Part shown: positions 546 through 10,234 of the stretch, in pieces | Layout: each line of letters opens with the position of its first letter | How positions within the stretch are numbered: position 1 is the first letter of the stretch | Source: Halovulum marinum | GTDB lineage: Bacteria; Pseudomonadota; Alphaproteobacteria; Rhodobacterales; Rhodobacteraceae | Assembly (NCBI RefSeq): GCF_009697225.1 | Contig: NZ_WIND01000001.1 | Coordinates: forward strand, 310,001-374,000 | DNA length: 64,000 nucleotides | Reading direction: 5' to 3' | Program-made: the position numbers and the translations under genes | Notes under the pieces: model-generated | Databases searched by the model: none | Told to the model about the DNA's origin: nothing | What the model saw: only the letters and a program-made list of their open reading frames with translations

Positions 546-1730
546 ATGCGGAAATTTCTTCTCGCTTCCGCCGCCAGCGCGCTGGTCGGCACCGGCGCCC
601 TCGCGCAGGAGGCGAATATCGGCATCATCTTCGGCTTCACCGGGCCGATCGAATCGCTGACCCCGAACATGGCGGCCAGCGCCGAACTTGCCCTGAAGGA
701 GGTATCGGACAGCGGCAAGCTGCTGGACGGGCTGACCCTGACCCCGGTGCGCGCCGACTCGACCTGCGTCGACAGCGCCGCCGCCACCGCCGCGGCCGAG
801 CGGCTGGTGACCTCGGACAACGTCGTCGCCATCGTCGGCGCCGACTGCTCGGGCGTGACCACCGCCGTCGCCAACAACGTCGCGGTGCCCAACGGCGTGG
901 TGATGGTGTCGCCCTCGGCGACCTCGCCGGCGCTGTCCAGCATCGACGACAACGACCTGTTCTTCCGCGTCGCCCCGTCGGACGCCCGCCAGGGCGAGGT
1001 GCTGGCGAACATCGTCAAGGACAACGGCCATGACGAAGTGGCCGTGACCTACACCAACAACGACTACGGCAAGGGCCTGTCGGACAGCTTCATCCAGAAC
1101 TACGAGGCGCTCGGCGGCACCGTCACCATCAACGCCGCACACGAGGACGGCAAGGGCGACTACTCGGCCGAGGTGGGCGCGCTGGCGTCGGCCGGCGGCA
1201 GCGCGCTGGTGGTGCTGGGCTACGCCGATCAGGGCGGTGTCGGCGTCGTCCGCGCGGCGCTGGACACCGGCGCCTTCGACACCTTCGCCTTCGGCGACGG
1301 CATGTTCGCCGACACCCTGCTGGACGCGCTGGGCGACAGCCTGGAAGGCTCGATCGGCTCGGTGCCCTGGTCCGAGGGCGAGGGCGCCGACACCTTCGCC
1401 GAGGTCGCCGAGGCCGCTGGCGTCGACCCGTCCTCGACCTTCACCCGCGAAAGCTACGACTCGGCGGCGCTGATCGCGCTGGCGATCCAGAAGGGCGGCG
1501 AGGCCAGCCGCGAGGCGGTCGCCGCCAACCTGCTGGACGTGGCCAACGAGCCGGGCGAGAAGATCATGCCGGGCGAGCTGGCCAAGGCGCTGGAAATTCT
1601 TGCCGAGGGCGGCGACGTCGATTATGTCGGCGCCACCAACGTCGAGCTGATCGGCCCCGGCGAGGCCGCCGGCACCTATCGCGACTACGTCATCGAGGGT
1701 GGCGAGTACAAGACCGTCCAGTTCCGCTGA
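546..1730 (+). CDS. Branched-chain amino acid type ABC transporter substrate-binding protein
   Basis: This is a periplasmic binding protein of the LivJ/LivK (Peripla_BP_6) family, 394 residues, the usual length. The ATG at 546 is chosen because a GGGAGAG ribosome site lies just upstream and it opens a clean signal peptide (MRKFLLASAASALVGTGALAQ). The mature protein begins with the family pattern IGIIFGFTGPIESLTP and carries a VGADCSG loop and a TYTNNDYGKG segment. It heads a livG-livF-livH-livM set and should deliver the ligand to that permease. Leucine-type, amide or other small ligands are all possible; the family alone does not decide. Confidence 0.9.
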   Translation: MRKFLLASAASALVGTGALAQEANIGIIFGFTGPIESLTPNMAASAELALKEVSDSGKLLDGLTLTPVRADSTCVDSAAATAAAERLVTSDNVVAIVGADCSGVTTAVANNVAVPNGVVMVSPSATSPALSSIDDNDLFFRVAPSDARQGEVLANIVKDNGHDEVAVTYTNNDYGKGLSDSFIQNYEALGGTVTINAAHEDGKGDYSAEVGALASAGGSALVVLGYADQGGVGVVRAALDTGAFDTFAFGDGMFADTLLDALGDSLEGSIGSVPWSEGEGADTFAEVAEAAGVDPSSTFTRESYDSAALIALAIQKGGEASREAVAANLLDVANEPGEKIMPGELAKALEILAEGGDVDYVGATNVELIGPGEAAGTYRDYVIEGGEYKTVQFR

Positions 1731-1754
1731 CGGCCGCGACGATCCAACCTGGGG

Positions 1755-1782
1755 GACCCGAGGCGCGGCCGCGCCTTGGGTC
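1755..1782 (+). terminator. GC-rich hairpin, probable attenuator between the binding protein gene and livG
   Basis: GACCC at 1755-1759 pairs with GGGTC at 1778-1782, and AGGCGCGG at 1761-1768 pairs with CCGCGCCT at 1769-1776, with one G-T pair between the two stems. The result is a 14-bp near-perfect palindrome followed directly by TTTCC. It lies in the 76-bp gap between the two genes. Partial terminators of this kind commonly let the binding protein be made in excess over the other transporter subunits. The short T tract suggests incomplete termination. Confidence 0.6.
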
Positions 1783-1806
1783 TTTCCATAACTGGAAGAG
1801 CCTGGC

Positions 1807-2601
<795 letters not shown>

Positions 2602-2824
2602 TCCCCGCCGCCGCGGCGCGGCCCGCGCTTCGGGCCGCCGAAGGTCAGGGGCATGGCCCCCGGCGGGCTGGATTGGCTGCGGCAGGAGGCGTGATGACTC
2701 CGGCATCGCGCCCCGCGCGAGAACGCGCTTACGAAGTCTTCATGAACAGTCTGCCTTTCCGATCAACAGATTACTTGGGTTTTCACGGTGAAATCCCCGC
2801 ATTTTCACGAAACGGGGGCGCGCC
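2602..2824. other. Unusually long livG-livF spacer with hairpin and lower-GC segment
   Basis: The spacer is 223 bp in an operon whose other junctions are mostly only a few bases. GCGGCCCG at 2618-2625 and CGGGCCGC at 2631-2638 form an 8-bp stem with a 5-nt loop and no T run. From about 2700 to 2820 the sequence is clearly less GC-rich than the genes. No open frame here looks like a protein. It could hold an attenuator plus a secondary promoter for livFHM. Confidence 0.5.
2781..2793. promoter_or_regulatory. Inverted repeat TTTCAC-G-GTGAAA upstream of livF, candidate operator
   Basis: TTTCAC at 2781-2786 and GTGAAA at 2788-2793 form a perfect 13-bp inverted repeat 32 bp before the livF start. 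A further TTTCAC half-site follows at 2803-2808. The regulator is unknown. Confidence 0.4.
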
Positions 2825-3529
2825 ATGGCTTTCCTGATCGGCGAGGCCATGACCGGTGGCTACGGCGGCGCCGACATCCTTCACGACTGCACGATCTCGG
2901 TCGAGAAGGGGCAGATCGCAGTGATCGTCGGGCCCAACGGCGCCGGCAAGTCGACCGCGATGAAGGCGGTGTTCGGCATGCTCGGGCTGCGCCAGGGCCG
3001 GGTGCTGCTGGACGGGCGCGACATCACCGCGCTCAGCCCGCAGGACCGGGTCGCGGCGGGCATGGGCTTCGTGCCGCAGAACGCGAACGTCTTCACCTCG
3101 CTGACGGTGCGCGAGAACCTCGAGATGGGCGCCTACCTGCGCCAGGACGACTATTCCATCACGATGGAGCAGGTGTTCGACCTGTTCCCGATCCTGCAGG
3201 AAAAGGCCGCCCAGCCGGCGGGCGAGCTGTCCGGCGGCCAGCGCCAGCAGGTCGCCGTCGGCCGCGCGCTGATGACCCAGCCCTCGGTGCTGATGCTGGA
3301 CGAGCCCACCGCCGGCGTCTCGCCGATCGTGATGGACGAGCTGTTCGACCGCATCCTCGAGGTCGCCGCCACCGGCATCGCCATCCTGATGGTCGAGCAG
3401 AACGCCAAGCAGGCGCTGAACATCGCCGACCGCGGCTTCGTGCTGGTGCAGGGCCGCAACCGCTTCACCGACACCGGGCAGGCCCTGCTGGCCGACCCCG
3501 AGGTCCGCGCCAGCTTCCTGGGGGGTTGA
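2825..3529 (+). CDS. livF: ABC transporter ATP-binding protein LivF
   Basis: This is the second ATPase of the importer, 234 residues, typical of LivF. Walker A is GPNGAGKST, the Q-loop segment is VPQNANVFTSLTVRENLEMGAY, the signature is LSGGQRQQVAVGRALM and Walker B is VLMLDEPTAGVSP. The ending (EQNAKQALNIADRGFVLVQGR) is the LivF type. The ATG at 2825 is preceded by GGGGGCG. It is separated from livH by one base, so the two are translated as a unit. Confidence 0.92.
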   Translation: MAFLIGEAMTGGYGGADILHDCTISVEKGQIAVIVGPNGAGKSTAMKAVFGMLGLRQGRVLLDGRDITALSPQDRVAAGMGFVPQNANVFTSLTVRENLEMGAYLRQDDYSITMEQVFDLFPILQEKAAQPAGELSGGQRQQVAVGRALMTQPSVLMLDEPTAGVSPIVMDELFDRILEVAATGIAILMVEQNAKQALNIADRGFVLVQGRNRFTDTGQALLADPEVRASFLGG

Positions 3530-5839: not shown

Positions 5840-7010
5840 GCGGCGCGACCAGGATCAGCGCCGCGCCCAGCCCCACGCACAGCGCCATCACCAGCGCCAT
5901 CGGCAGCGCCGTGCCGTCGTAGAACTGCGCCGACAGATACCCCGCCGCCGCCGACAGCCCGAGCTGGAGCGAGCCCAGCAGCGCCGCCGCCGGACCCTGC
6001 GGCGCGTCGGCCACCACCCCCAGCACCTCGAGCGGGCCGGCGGCCAGCACCAGCGCCAGGCTGCCGGCGTAAAGGCCGACCGGCACCAGCATCGTCACCA
6101 CGCCCAGTTGCCCCGCCGCCAGCGGCAGCACCAGCAGCACGCTGGCCGCCAGCGTCACCAGCGCGCCCAGCCGCAGCAGCCGTGCCGCCGTCACCCGCCG
6201 CCCCAGCCGCGAGGCGATCGCGTTGCCGGCGACGAAGGCCGCGACCACCGCCAGGTTGGTCAAGCCATAGCGCTCGGTCGGCAGGCCGATCAGGTCGATG
6301 AACACCACCGGCGCGGTGGTGACATAGGCATAGAGCGCCGCGAAGATCAGCGACACGCCCACCGCCGGCTGCAGGAAGCGCCTGTTCGACAGCAGCGCGC
6401 CATAGCCGCGCAGCGTGCCGCGCAGATGCAGGCGGTGCGATACCGACAGCGATTCCGGCACCTGATGCCACAGCGCCGCGGCCACCAGCAGCGCCAGCGC
6501 GGCGACGAACCAGAACCCCGCCTGCCAGCCGAACCAGACGTGGAGATAGCCGCCGATCAGCGGCCCCACCGCCGGCGCCATGCCCAGCGCGGCGCCGTAG
6601 ATCGCCATCACCGCCAGCGCCCGCGACGGTCCGTACAGCTCGCGGATCATCAGCACGATCACCACCGAAGGCACGCTGGAGAACAGCCCCTGCATGAACC
6701 GTCCCGACAGCAGCCAGCCGATGTCCGGCGCCAGCGCGCTGGCCGCCGAGGTCAGCGCGAAGGCGACGAACGCCCCCAACAGCAGACGGCGGCGGCCGAT
6801 CGCGTCGGCCACCGGCCCGTGCACCAGCTGCGCCAGTGCATAGGCGGCCAGGTTGATGCTGACGGTCAGCTGAGCGGCGGTGATCGAGGTTCCGAACGCG
6901 TCGGGCAGGTCGGGGATCGACGGCGTGATCAGGTCGGTGGACAGGATGCTGACCGCGGTGCACGCGGCCAGGATGTAGGGCACGGTGCGGCCCGGCGCGG
7001 GCCGCGTCAT
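5802..7010 (-). CDS. Bcr/CflA-family multidrug efflux MFS transporter
   Basis: This is a twelve-segment major facilitator exporter of about 402 residues. DLITPSIPDLPDAFG in segment 1 and QLVHGPVADAIGRRRLLLGAF in loop 2-3 are the Bcr/CflA (drug:proton antiporter) pattern. The ATG at 7010 is used; an upstream in-frame TTG at 7022 has a GAGG motif 8 nt before it and would add four residues. It lies convergent to livM and 26 bp or more downstream of the LysR gene on the same strand, so the regulator may control it. The substrate is unknown. Confidence 0.85.
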   Translation of the reverse strand: MTRPAPGRTVPYILAACTAVSILSTDLITPSIPDLPDAFGTSITAAQLTVSINLAAYALAQLVHGPVADAIGRRRLLLGAFVAFALTSAASALAPDIGWLLSGRFMQGLFSSVPSVVIVLMIRELYGPSRALAVMAIYGAALGMAPAVGPLIGGYLHVWFGWQAGFWFVAALALLVAAALWHQVPESLSVSHRLHLRGTLRGYGALLSNRRFLQPAVGVSLIFAALYAYVTTAPVVFIDLIGLPTERYGLTNLAVVAAFVAGNAIASRLGRRVTAARLLRLGALVTLAASVLLVLPLAAGQLGVVTMLVPVGLYAGSLALVLAAGPLEVLGVVADAPQGPAAALLGSLQLGLSAAAGYLSAQFYDGTALPMALVMALCVGLGAALILVAPLSGAARGSGRAG

Positions 7011-7048
7011 CGTTGTGGACAAGACAGCGGCCTCACAAGACAGGGGCC

Positions 7049-8062
7049 TCAGCCGATTTCCCGAAGGTTTCCGGTGGCGGCGAACCCGCGAGCCGTGCTG
7101 TCCTGCCAGTGCCGGCTGTCGAACTCGCCGAAGGCGCTGGGGTGGATGAACTCATCGCGGAACCAGGGATACTTGCTGGCATCGAAGGCGCCGATCAGCC
7201 AGTCGATGATGGTGGCGATCCGCGGCGTCCTGCGCGCGTCCGGGTGATAGGTCATCCAGATGTCGATGCGGTGGTGGACGCCGATGTCGATCGGCACCAG
7301 GTCCGCGCCCAGCGCCGAGGCGAAGGTCGGCAGGCCGCCGATGCCGGCGCCGCGCTCGACCGCGTAGAAGTGCGCCGCGGACGAGTTGGTGCGGATGCCG
7401 ACCACGCCCTCGATGTCCTCGATCCCGAGGTAGCGCGGCCAGGCGCCCTGGTCCAGCTGCGGGCCGACCTGGTCGACCAGCCGATGGTCCAGCATCTCGG
7501 CGCGGCTTTGCGGCACGCCGTAGACGTCGATGTAACGGCGCGAGGCGTAGGGATAGACGTGCAGCGAGGCCAGCCGGCGGCGCATCACGTGCGGGTTCTG
7601 CGGTTCGGCGAACTGGATCGCGACGTCGGCCTCCATCCGGCTGACGTCGACCGGCACTTCTGCGGCCTTCAGGTCGATCACCATCATCGGGTTGCCGCGC
7701 TGGAACTCGATCAGCCGCGGCATCAGCCAGTACGAGCCGATGCCCTCGGTCGCGGCGATGCGAACGATGCCGCGCTTGTTCGGATCGAAGGTCTCGATCC
7801 GGCGCTGGAAATCGAACGCGCCCTGTTCGATCTGGTTCGCTGACGACACCAGCCGCGACGCCTCGCGCGTCAACTGCACGCCGTTGGGCAGCCGGTCGAA
7901 CAGCTGGAATCCCAGCTCTTCTTCGAGGGCGCTGATTCTCCGCACAACTGTAGAGCTGGTCAGGCCCAGTTTCTTTGCGGCCGCCCTGAAGCTCAGAGCA
8001 CGCGCACAGGCCAGAAATACCTTCAAATCATCCCAGGAAGGGTCCGGAGTCGCGTGTTTCAT
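7049..8062 (-). CDS. LysR-family transcriptional regulator
   Basis: The protein is 337 residues. The N-terminal winged helix-turn-helix is clear (WDDLKVFLACARALSFRAAAKKLGLTSSTVVRRISALEEELG, with the LFDRLPNGVQLT wing). It is followed by a LysR substrate-binding domain that starts VRIAATEGIGSYWLMPRL. The ATG at 8062 has GGGGCGAC just upstream; an earlier in-frame TTG at 8098 is less likely. It is divergent from the 8210 cluster and co-directional with the exporter at 5802-7010. By LysR habit it may regulate the divergent genes, the exporter, or both. Confidence 0.9.
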   Translation of the reverse strand: MKHATPDPSWDDLKVFLACARALSFRAAAKKLGLTSSTVVRRISALEEELGFQLFDRLPNGVQLTREASRLVSSANQIEQGAFDFQRRIETFDPNKRGIVRIAATEGIGSYWLMPRLIEFQRGNPMMVIDLKAAEVPVDVSRMEADVAIQFAEPQNPHVMRRRLASLHVYPYASRRYIDVYGVPQSRAEMLDHRLVDQVGPQLDQGAWPRYLGIEDIEGVVGIRTNSSAAHFYAVERGAGIGGLPTFASALGADLVPIDIGVHHRIDIWMTYHPDARRTPRIATIIDWLIGAFDASKYPWFRDEFIHPSAFGEFDSRHWQDSTARGFAATGNLREIG

Positions 8063-8167
8063 GTCGCCCCGCTGCAATTCCGCATCAGTCCGTTGCAAAC
8101 ACTATGCGCTGCAAAGGCGAATTCGGCAAGCTAATTTTCAACCGTAAATACTCGTGTGCGGCAGAAT

Positions 8168-8200
8168 TAAGGAGGAATTTTGGTCTTTTTGGCCGAATAG
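8168..8200 (+). promoter_or_regulatory. Strong ribosome site followed by a six-codon leader frame
   Basis: AAGGAGGAA at 8169-8177 is the best Shine-Dalgarno match in the neighbourhood, but no long frame starts beside it. A TTG at 8180 opens six codons ending in TAG at 8198-8200, in the same frame as the next gene at 8210. This could be a leader peptide coupling translation, or a nonsense mutation that cut off a longer N-terminus. Confidence 0.35.
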
Positions 8201-8209
8201 ATTGAGCCG

Positions 8210-8776
8210 ATGATGCACCTCGCCAAGGAATTCGACACTCTGGACCCGGAACCGGCAAGACGCCGCGTTCTCGTGACACGGGCCCGTCACGTCGAATTAC
8301 GCGCAATCTATCCCCGGGCGGCTGCCGCGCTGATGCAGCGCATGGCCAGCCTGGATACCTGCGAGAGTATACGAAAACGGCATCTGGACAACCTCTGGTC
8401 GATCTTCGACCGGCGGAGCGGCGATCTGATCGGCATGTACGCGATGGCGATGCTGACCGAGGAAGGGCGCGCCGCCCTTCTGGACGGAAGCTTCGAGGCG
8501 CACGATCCGCGACTGTCGCACGTGGCGGCCACCGGCGAGCCGGTGTCGGCGATCTACAAGTGGGGCGTGTTCGCACCGGCGATGGCCGCGGCGGCGATCC
8601 CGCTGATCGCGGAACGGCTGTCGACGCCCGACTATCGCGATCTGGACCTCTACGGCAACGGCTCCACCCCCGCCGGGCGCCGCATCATGCGGTCGGTCGG
8701 CTTCAAGCCGGTCGACGATCCGCGCTCACCCAACCTGTATCTGTACCCGCGCCTGTCCAGACGTCCGCGCGGCTGA
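8210..8776 (+). CDS. Unrecognised protein, possibly GNAT-like
   Basis: The protein is 188 residues with no signal peptide or membrane segment. I do not recognise the family. The C-terminal half (IYKWGVFAPAMAAAAIPLIAERL, then LDLYGNGSTPAGRRIMRSVGFKPV) resembles the acetyl-CoA-binding and last-strand part of GNAT acetyltransferases, where a residue moves from a helix to a 'grr...vGFkpv' ending. ATG codons lie at 8210 and 8213, neither with a good ribosome site; the strong site at 8169 is 33 bp away. It is the first gene of a short co-directional cluster divergent from lysR. Confidence 0.6.
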   Translation: MMHLAKEFDTLDPEPARRRVLVTRARHVELRAIYPRAAAALMQRMASLDTCESIRKRHLDNLWSIFDRRSGDLIGMYAMAMLTEEGRAALLDGSFEAHDPRLSHVAATGEPVSAIYKWGVFAPAMAAAAIPLIAERLSTPDYRDLDLYGNGSTPAGRRIMRSVGFKPVDDPRSPNLYLYPRLSRRPRG

Positions 8777-8843
8777 GTAAACCGTCACCCCTGTTCGGGG
8801 ACACATCTGCAATCGAAAACCGCCTGCTCCAGGAGACTCCCCA

Positions 8844-9482
8844 ATGCCCGACGGTCAAATCGCATTCGGCGCCGACCCGCACTCCGCCGCCCCCGCTCGC
8901 CCGCGCCCGAAACTTGCCGTGACCACGGCCAAGACCATCGAGGACATCATGCGCGTCACCACGATCCGCGCCGCCGTCTACATGGCCGAGCAGGACTGCC
9001 CCTACGAGGAAGAGTTCGACGGCAACGACTTCTGCGCCACCCACATGATCGGCTGGGTCGACGGCGAGCCGGTGGCCTGCGTGCGCATCCGCTATTTCGG
9101 AGGCTTCGCCAAGATCGAGCGGCTGGCGGTGCGTCCGCGCTATCGCAAGTCGCGCATCGCCTTCAAGATGATCCGCGCCGCGTTCGACCACTGCCTGCGC
9201 AAGGGGTTCACCAAGATCCTCGGCCACGCGCGAAACGAGCTGATCCCGCTTTACAAGATGTTCGGATGTCGCGTGGCAGACACGGGCCGTAGCCTGGTGT
9301 TCTCCGATTACTCCTACACCGAAATGATCTGGGAGGGCGAATTGCCCGAGAACGCCATCACGCTGGAAAGCGATCCCTACGAGCTGCTGCGCCCCGAGGG
9401 CGAGTGGGACCGGCGCGGCGTGCTGGAGGACTCGGTCGACCGCAGCGCCGAGCAGGGCAGCTATGCGATCGCGGCGGAATAG
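8844..9482 (+). CDS. GNAT-family N-acyltransferase
   Basis: The protein is 212 residues. The GNAT core is visible from about residue 45 to 150: RAAVYMAEQDCPYEEEFDGND, then GWVDGEPVACVRIRYFGGFAKIERLAVRPRYRKSRIAFKMIRAAFDH. This is motif A, with R-x-x-Y-R-K-S-R in the acyl-CoA loop position. An 'ARNELIPLYKMFGCRV' motif B follows. The arrangement 'VYxxE ... D ... ERLAV' recalls N-acyl amino acid synthases of the GNAT fold, but that is only a resemblance. AGGAGA lies just before the ATG. Substrate unknown; cytoplasmic. Confidence 0.75.
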   Translation: MPDGQIAFGADPHSAAPARPRPKLAVTTAKTIEDIMRVTTIRAAVYMAEQDCPYEEEFDGNDFCATHMIGWVDGEPVACVRIRYFGGFAKIERLAVRPRYRKSRIAFKMIRAAFDHCLRKGFTKILGHARNELIPLYKMFGCRVADTGRSLVFSDYSYTEMIWEGELPENAITLESDPYELLRPEGEWDRRGVLEDSVDRSAEQGSYAIAAE

Positions 9483-9494
9483 GGAGCGCGCGCC

Positions 9495-10049
9495 ATGAGC
9501 ATCATCATCAGGCCGTCCGACAGCGTCTTCAAGCGCACCACGCCGCTTGTCCTGATCTTTGGCGCCTACCGGCGATTCGAGCTGGACCCGCCGCTGTCGC
9601 AGGAGGAACTGGACACGATCACCCAGGTCGTCGCGCTGTCGCGGCGCCTGCGGGCACCGCTGGCGTTCTCGCGCCTGGTGCCCGAGGATCGCGCACCGGA
9701 AGCGGGTGTCTGGCTGCCGGACTGCCGCCCGAAGATCACCGACCGGGTGTTCGACCACGCCCCGGGCTCGATGTTCCAGAACCGGGAATTCGCCAACGCG
9801 TTCAGAAGCATAACCCGGCGCGACCTGGTCCTGACCGGACCCCGGAGCGATTCGTCGCTGATGGCCACCGCCCGCGATTCCCGCCCCTATGGCCGCGACG
9901 CGCAGGTGGTTTTGCCCGATGGCGCGCTGCATATACGCAGCACGGCGACACGGGCCGTTCGCGAGGTCGCCGCGGTGATGCCACAATCTGGGCGAATTTC
10001 CACAGTCAACTTCAGCGAGTGGGAGCAATCCGTCTGTGTCTTTGAGTAG
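9495..10049 (+). CDS. Isochorismatase-fold protein lacking the catalytic cysteine
   Basis: The protein is 184 residues. The order of elements fits cysteine hydrolases of the isochorismatase family: an N-terminal strand, a helix, 'KITDRVFDHAPGSMFQNREFANAFRS', a 'DLVLTGPRSDSSLMATARDSRPYG' stretch and 'DAQVVLPDG'. In active members the fourth contains a T/S-D-x-C-V motif; here the cysteine position is Ser121. The usual Asp in the first strand is also absent (LVLIFGAYRRF). It is therefore probably a non-catalytic or altered homologue. It starts 12 bp after the acyltransferase gene and is likely co-translated. Confidence 0.5.
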   Translation: MSIIIRPSDSVFKRTTPLVLIFGAYRRFELDPPLSQEELDTITQVVALSRRLRAPLAFSRLVPEDRAPEAGVWLPDCRPKITDRVFDHAPGSMFQNREFANAFRSITRRDLVLTGPRSDSSLMATARDSRPYGRDAQVVLPDGALHIRSTATRAVREVAAVMPQSGRISTVNFSEWEQSVCVFE

Positions 10050-10060
10050 CGAGGCCCTCG

Positions 10061-10234
10061 TTGGATCAGACGCCAAGAAGAAACAAAGAGCATGAGGCCA
10101 TCCTGAGAATGATGGTCTATATGCAGGGCGAACTATTCAGGTGCGGCCTCGACAAAGAGGCCGGTATTATTTCTGAAGTCATAGCAAGTATTGAAGAATT
10201 GCGCGGCGCCAGAACTGTCGCCGCCGACGCCTAA
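10061..10234 (+). CDS. Small 57-residue protein, unrecognised
   Basis: A TTG at 10061 (GAGG 5-10 bp upstream) opens 57 codons ending in TAA at 10232-10234, 11 bp after the previous gene. An in-frame ATG at 10109 is an alternative start. The peptide looks like a real helical protein (HEAILRMMVYMQGELFRCG, then EAGIISEVIASIEELR), not a chance frame. It has one Cys and no membrane segment. Codon use is much more A/T-ending than in neighbouring operons, suggesting recent acquisition. It could be a partner or regulator of the upstream proteins. Confidence 0.5.
   Translation: MDQTPRRNKEHEAILRMMVYMQGELFRCGLDKEAGIISEVIASIEELRGARTVAADA

Follow-up and report, generated by a model that had tools for sequence, protein, structure and literature searches.

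We analyzed a 64,000-nucleotide stretch of Halovulum marinum DNA (hereafter, the window), in which four co-directional genes lie divergent from a gene for a LysR-family regulator (Table 1). The four genes encode proteins of 188, 212, 184, and 57 amino acids (aa); the first is called the 8210 protein after its start position and the second simply GNAT. They are separated by gaps of 67, 12, and 11 bp, which would be compatible with a single transcript. A preliminary description had reported this arrangement, and the open reading frames were confirmed. All four genes are real, because other genera have homologs arranged in this same order, and none is a chance open reading frame. The 57-aa gene starts with TTG, and the likely start of the LysR gene is the ATG at 8062 (MKHATPDPSW), not the TTG at 8098 of a longer open reading frame. 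A promoter scan of the locus returned no sigma-70-like site, and terminator-like sites occurred at chance level.

Table 1. Genes and sequence features of the module, in window coordinates.
Feature	Position	Strand	Evidence
LysR-family regulator	7049..8062	-	Pfam HTH_1 and LysR_substrate; GNAT-adjacent orthologs; own lineage; co-occurrence in genomes
Conserved intergenic footprint, candidate LysR-binding region	8069..8123	.	Column conservation among relatives
8210 protein, GNAT fold, probable non-catalytic GNAT partner	8210..8776	+	AlphaFold2 model, structure matches, alignment, fusions
GNAT acyltransferase with private C-terminal RPEGxWDxPGxL	8844..9482	+	Pfam Acetyltransf_1, invariant columns, model, tail motif scan
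Isochorismatase-fold pseudo-enzyme	9495..10049	+	PF00857; residues aligned to 26st and 3eef
Small protein of 57 aa, probable two-helix hairpin	10061..10234	+	Same-place homologs; profile matches in distant loci

We investigated how widely this gene set is distributed. A scan for GNAT with one genome per species yielded 35 named genome loci, whose flanks were read. The divergent LysR was found in 28 of the 35 loci, the 8210 family in 33 (in one of them fused to GNAT), and the isochorismatase-like gene in 25; a small helical protein is encoded in 16 loci. Profiles of the latter two families were built partly on the same 35 loci, and those counts therefore lean on position. The isochorismatase-like gene also lies 3' of GNAT in loci outside the profile-building set (L067, L070–L072, and L094–L099). 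The full order, with LysR divergent from 8210, GNAT, isochorismatase-like, and small-protein genes, recurs in loci of Rhodobacteraceae, Rhizobiales, Caulobacterales, Maricaulales, and Rhodospirillaceae. The 8210 gene is absent from Alsobacter (L034) and L045, and Hyphomonas-type loci keep 8210 and GNAT alone, without LysR. GNAT was carried by 24 of 385 alphaproteobacterial genomes in a class sample and by 15 of 398 genomes in a phylum sample, with every match of the latter in Alphaproteobacteria. Pairwise identities of the LysR, 8210, GNAT, and isochorismatase-like proteins correlated at 0.83–0.92, as expected under co-inheritance, although common ancestry alone would give the same values. Co-occurrence of the four genes in other genomes, a check that the preliminary description had proposed, is thus widespread, and the four genes together with LysR are an old co-inherited unit of Alphaproteobacteria, not a random grouping. 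A literature search on combinations of LysR, GNAT, and isochorismatase, or on ElaA/YjcF, found no description of such a module; it is apparently undescribed and combines familiar kinds of components in a new way.

The window LysR, which has both a DNA-binding HTH_1 and a substrate domain, is matched by GNAT-adjacent orthologs at 79–86% within Rhodobacteraceae, falling to about 29% in other groups. Maximum-likelihood phylogeny separated the LysRs encoded next to GNAT from all but one of 18 other LysRs, and the one that did not separate was a very long branch. The paralogs in this tree came mostly from the window’s own genome; hence, the 385 alphaproteobacterial genomes were scanned with a profile built from the GNAT-adjacent LysRs. 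Fourteen LysRs scored 258–497 bits, whereas the next best reached at most 245 bits. These 14 came from 13 genomes, all of which carry GNAT (13/13, against a base rate of 24/385), and 12 of the 14 LysRs lay no more than 2 kb from GNAT. This LysR thus forms a dedicated lineage co-inherited with GNAT, and the pairing of the two is deep and almost confined to the class.

Sequence conservation in the LysR–8210 intergenic region was uneven. Within the footprint listed in Table 1, 26 of 55 columns were conserved in at least 6 of 7 Rhodobacteraceae sequences, compared with 1 of 44 columns at 8166–8209, nearer the 8210 start. The footprint holds a near-inverted repeat, GCATC-N5-GTTGC (8082–8096), which takes the perfect form GCATC-N5-GATGC in L003 and L031. 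The natural reading of this block is a putative LysR operator. The predicted DNA fold of the intergenic region showed nothing unusual (z = 0.57).

Several loci differ in their surroundings or state. The two high-scoring LysRs away from GNAT (L159 3082–4545 in G556; L160 3060–4555 in G379) directly adjoin an XRE regulator, and both genomes carry the full module elsewhere. An XRE (HTH_3) regulator also lies within 5 kb of the module in L036, L037, L041, L045, L047, L050–L056, L065, L108, and L109, with weaker HTH_3 matches near it in L004 and L033. The Hyphomonas-type modules (L057, L058, L059, and L061–L064) come after a pair of genes for acyl-CoA dehydrogenases and one for an enoyl-CoA hydratase, and L049 has an acyl-CoA dehydrogenase pair downstream of the module (6059–8222); these neighbors hint at acyl-CoA chemistry. 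In one genus (G553, G476, and G263; L077/L092, L078/L091, and L080/L093), GNAT is present as a tandem pair whose second copy is the more divergent. L156 (G267), at 1474–3221, is a decayed module: a stop splits its LysR, only the RPEG tail is left of GNAT, and an isochorismatase-like gene is present. L062 and L063, from records titled Acidobacteria or Sulfopaludibacter, are near-identical in layout to the Hyphomonas locus L064 and are probably binning errors.

Profile searches of each protein and structure prediction had both been suggested in the preliminary description. Pfam identified GNAT, LysR, and a marginal isochorismatase domain, and assigned no family to the 8210 and 57-aa proteins; structure prediction covered GNAT (core pLDDT 84) and the 8210 protein (AlphaFold2, pLDDT 93), and both models are GNAT folds. 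For GNAT, Acetyltransf_1 scored 46 bits (cut-off 20.7), and the core superposed on SACOL1063 (5jph) with Z = 22.6 and rmsd 1.4 over 141 aligned residues, which bears out the earlier assignment of the second gene. The alignment of 28 homologs has 27 invariant columns, including R42, Q50, C52, E56, E57, D59, N61, H67, R81, R83, R93, R101, S154, Y158, and R183-P184-E185-G186. The last four residues open a private tail, RPEGxWDxPGxL (residues 183–194), which was present in the GNATs of every named locus where the C-terminus could be read (a frameshift affects this part of L033), in fused 8210–GNAT proteins, and on phage-like contigs. A motif scan gave no match among the generic ElaA-like GNATs L006–L030. 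The tail is a signature by which the module can be recognized anywhere, and its strict pattern goes unmatched in more divergent family members, e.g., L076–L093.

The usual GNAT pyrophosphate loop reads R/Q-x-x-G-x-G/A. This loop is not kept in the window GNAT, which reads YRKSRIA, and only R101 is invariant among the 28 homologs. Because the loop glycines are not conserved, the use of acetyl-CoA cannot be assumed, and GNAT could itself be a binding protein. The NCBIfam profile TIGR04045 (Nit1C-type GNAT) scored 17.7 bits against a cut-off of 68.45. Apparently, GNAT represents a distinctive, undescribed subfamily with an ElaA/YjcF-like core.

The 8210 protein had been described as unrecognized, with a GNAT-like C-terminal half. 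The former part stands, but the model is a complete GNAT fold rather than half of one, and its best PDB matches are all GNAT-fold (Z = 11–14). A sequence search for solved relatives of the family returned nothing significant (best, GphF, E = 0.04). Among 25 divergent 8210 sequences, only G75, G86, P100, and G156 are invariant, with no polar residue among them, a count to be read in light of the much greater divergence of these sequences compared with the GNATs. The 8210 and GNAT sequences form one open reading frame in L037, in L068/L162, and on the contig behind L105/L168; since the LysR tree places L037 and L105 as sisters, the fusion events may be two, not three. Such fusion argues for physical partnership, and the 8210 protein is probably a non-catalytic partner of GNAT, as judged from its model and alignment.

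The isochorismatase-like protein matched PF00857 marginally (28.9 bits, cut-off 27), and 21 of its 22 homologs matched the same family. When aligned to the active relatives 26st and 3eef, the Asp-Lys-Cys triad reads Gly, His, and Ser in the window protein, and only one of the 22 aligned homologs (L045) keeps all three residues. The isochorismatase fold without its nucleophile, as first described, is confirmed, and all three catalytic residues are lost; on these alignments, the protein is a conserved, predicted pseudo-enzyme lineage. The 57-aa protein matches L033 (E = 5e-6) and L031 (E = 3e-5) at the same position. Its homologs occupy the same place in L003, L004, L031, and L033, and profile matches occur in more distant loci. 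It is therefore a real protein.

Lower GC in the 3' part of the locus had been taken to suggest transfer. The GC content is indeed low in the 57-aa gene (0.51), and it is 0.49 in the LysR–8210 intergenic region, but the remaining genes are at 0.66–0.67 (window mean, 0.70), and relatives share the low-GC small gene or 3' region. Moreover, the module occupies the same slot in L031, L032, and L033 (Oceanibium and two Rhodobacteraceae metagenome-assembled genomes), with LivM-MFS on one side and, where contigs reach, PbpC on the other. On account of this synteny across genera, recent horizontal transfer into this genome was rejected, and the suggestion of such transfer is not supported.

Outside the window’s lineage, the module is mobile: it occurs on plasmids and, within GTA-tailed phage contigs, in several different places. 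Divergent versions lie on plasmids of Aureimonas, Agrobacterium, Rhizobium, and Sinorhizobium, and six IMG/VR contigs (predicted viral) carry the module; in four of them, the structural genes are related and one tail protein is of the GTA_TIM type. The module is downstream of the tape-measure gene in G935 (L104), and upstream of it in G937 (L106) and G938 (L107), whereas in G934 (L103) it lies at the opposite end, close to a gene resembling a head protease. On G936 (L105/L168 14348–15889), which has unrelated tail-fibre and endolysin genes, LysR and a fused 8210–GNAT follow the lysis gene. In the related GTA_TIM contigs, 8210–GNAT (plus LysR in L106) takes at least three positions, which resembles the behavior of a moron cassette that inserts independently. 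None of the deposited phages searched for GNAT carries it. The presence of the module on predicted phage contigs suggests an advantage to lysogens.

We interpret the locus, with a probability of about 0.5, as one working unit in which a dedicated LysR and a divergent operon of an acyltransferase and accessory proteins would act on a small molecule that LysR senses. The computational observations behind this reading are LysR–GNAT co-inheritance, gene order, the GNAT folds, 8210–GNAT fusion, and triad loss. GNAT would be the only active enzyme and may form a heteromer with the 8210 protein as its inactive copy, and the RPEGxWDxPGxL tail may serve substrate or partner binding. Judging from the protein families and a loose precedent in OatA and CysB, GNAT would move an acyl group onto a small amine-bearing metabolite, whose acylated or unacylated form LysR would sense, setting transcription from the putative operator. 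The pseudo-isochorismatase and the small protein would be optional modulators, as both are missing in several lineages. The earlier suggestion of a role in making or sensing an acylated small molecule remains reasonable, now with a dedicated LysR co-inherited with GNAT. With two degenerate enzyme-fold proteins kept next to a single conserved enzyme, the module is a compact and testable example of pseudo-enzymes as partners, and the identity of the substrate would reveal what both phages and hosts gain.

Alternatively, the module could confer detoxification or resistance, with LysR sensing a toxic amine (an antibiotic or a plant or microbial metabolite) and inducing GNAT, which would inactivate the amine by acylation. 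A LysR divergent from an enzyme gene is typical of inducible responses, and the patchy distribution (24/385 genomes) and cargo-like carriage on plasmids and phage-like contigs would suit this role. However, GNAT and its tail are strongly conserved over deep divergence and have a dedicated LysR, which suggests one constant endogenous substrate; in addition, nothing in the PADLOC defence library matched the five window proteins, and Pfam and NCBIfam gave no hit to a GNAT family of the resistance type. We regard detoxification as unlikely.

Signaling of the LuxI/LuxR type, in which GNAT would make a diffusible acylated signal, LysR would be its receptor, and prophages would listen in or signal, appears less likely still. 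It would fit the strict LysR–GNAT pairing, the GNAT fold shared by LuxI enzymes (LasI, 1ro5, ranked 45 in the fold list), the occurrence on at least two unrelated phage-like contig types, and the acyl-CoA dehydrogenases adjoining the Hyphomonas and L049 loci, but no LuxI or FeeM profile matched at cut-off, and in fold GNAT is nearest to ElaA/YjcF rather than to synthases of AHLs or N-acyl amino acids. An equally doubtful extension is that GNAT synthase, pseudo-GNAT partner, and LysR receptor constitute an unrecognized small-molecule signaling or sensing system repeatedly picked up by temperate phages.

Protein modification, with GNAT acylating a protein (its partner, the LysR, or some protein of phage or host) and its C-terminal tail acting as a docking peptide, is improbable: a conserved tail and a pseudo-GNAT partner would suit a protein–protein complex, and on G935 translational coupling links GNAT to a phage tail gene, but this linkage is inconstant between related phages, and no RHH/DUF1778-type antitoxin was found among the profile-scanned neighbor genes. 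Finally, although single genes are missing in some loci, chance neighborhood without a common role is ruled out by a gene order recurring in many families, the fusions, and LysR–GNAT co-occurrence across 385 genomes.

Compared with known systems, the working unit proposed here shares a GNAT fold in a small operon with type II toxin–antitoxin systems (TacT/AtaT), but it lacks an adjacent RHH antitoxin and is controlled by a full-length LysR; toxin–antitoxin identity was rejected, as no antitoxin-type neighbor occurred among the profile-scanned genes. A known anti-phage defence system was likewise rejected (zero PADLOC model matches for the five window proteins). FeeM and LuxI have the GNAT fold in common with the module GNAT, and LuxI is also a synthase encoded beside a regulator, but that regulator is LuxR, not LysR, and the LuxI autoinducer synthase profile had no Pfam or NCBIfam match at E up to 1. 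The FeeM profile scored 24.0 bits (Pfam cut-off 27), and the FeeM structure (Z = 16.2) was no nearer than dozens of generic GNATs. Neither profiles nor structure comparison supports FeeM/LuxI membership, and the N-acyl-synthase-like layout proposed in the preliminary description gives way to a core closest to SACOL1063, YjcF, and ElaA.

The top VIA matches of the 8210 model were the GNAT-like decarboxylase or loading domains SxtA, CurA GNATL, and GphF (Z = 13.0–14.0), tied with serotonin N-acetyltransferase (Z = 13.2), and a function assignment from these matches is unsupported. The nearest solved relatives of the isochorismatase-like protein, 4h17 and 8cib (E = 1e-27 and 2e-22), also have Ser at the Cys position but keep Asp and Lys, both of which the window protein has lost. 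In Salmonella, OatA, also a GNAT, forms N,O-diacetylserine, and its overexpression raises expression of the LysR-type CysB regulon; the OatA product is reported to have left CysB DNA-binding patterns in vitro unchanged, which makes OatA–CysB a loose parallel only (PMC6277577). Unlike the module, OatA–CysB is not reported as a co-inherited divergent pair and has no pseudo-enzyme partners. The closest likeness is to ElaA, YjcF, and SACOL1063 (5z6n, 1q2y, and 5jph), which have the same GNAT core (Z = 19.2–22.6, rmsd 1.4–1.8); the vF-x-EQ-x-CPY-x-E-x-DG motif region of ElaA and PA0115 is also common to the module GNAT. In the CoA loop, SACOL1063 keeps RGQGMG and ElaA is degenerate too (RGEKVG), whereas the loop of the module GNAT is altered to the sequence given above. 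The module GNAT further differs from these three proteins in its extra N- and C-terminal segments, with RPEGxWDxPGxL in the latter, and in having a dedicated LysR and a pseudo-GNAT partner.
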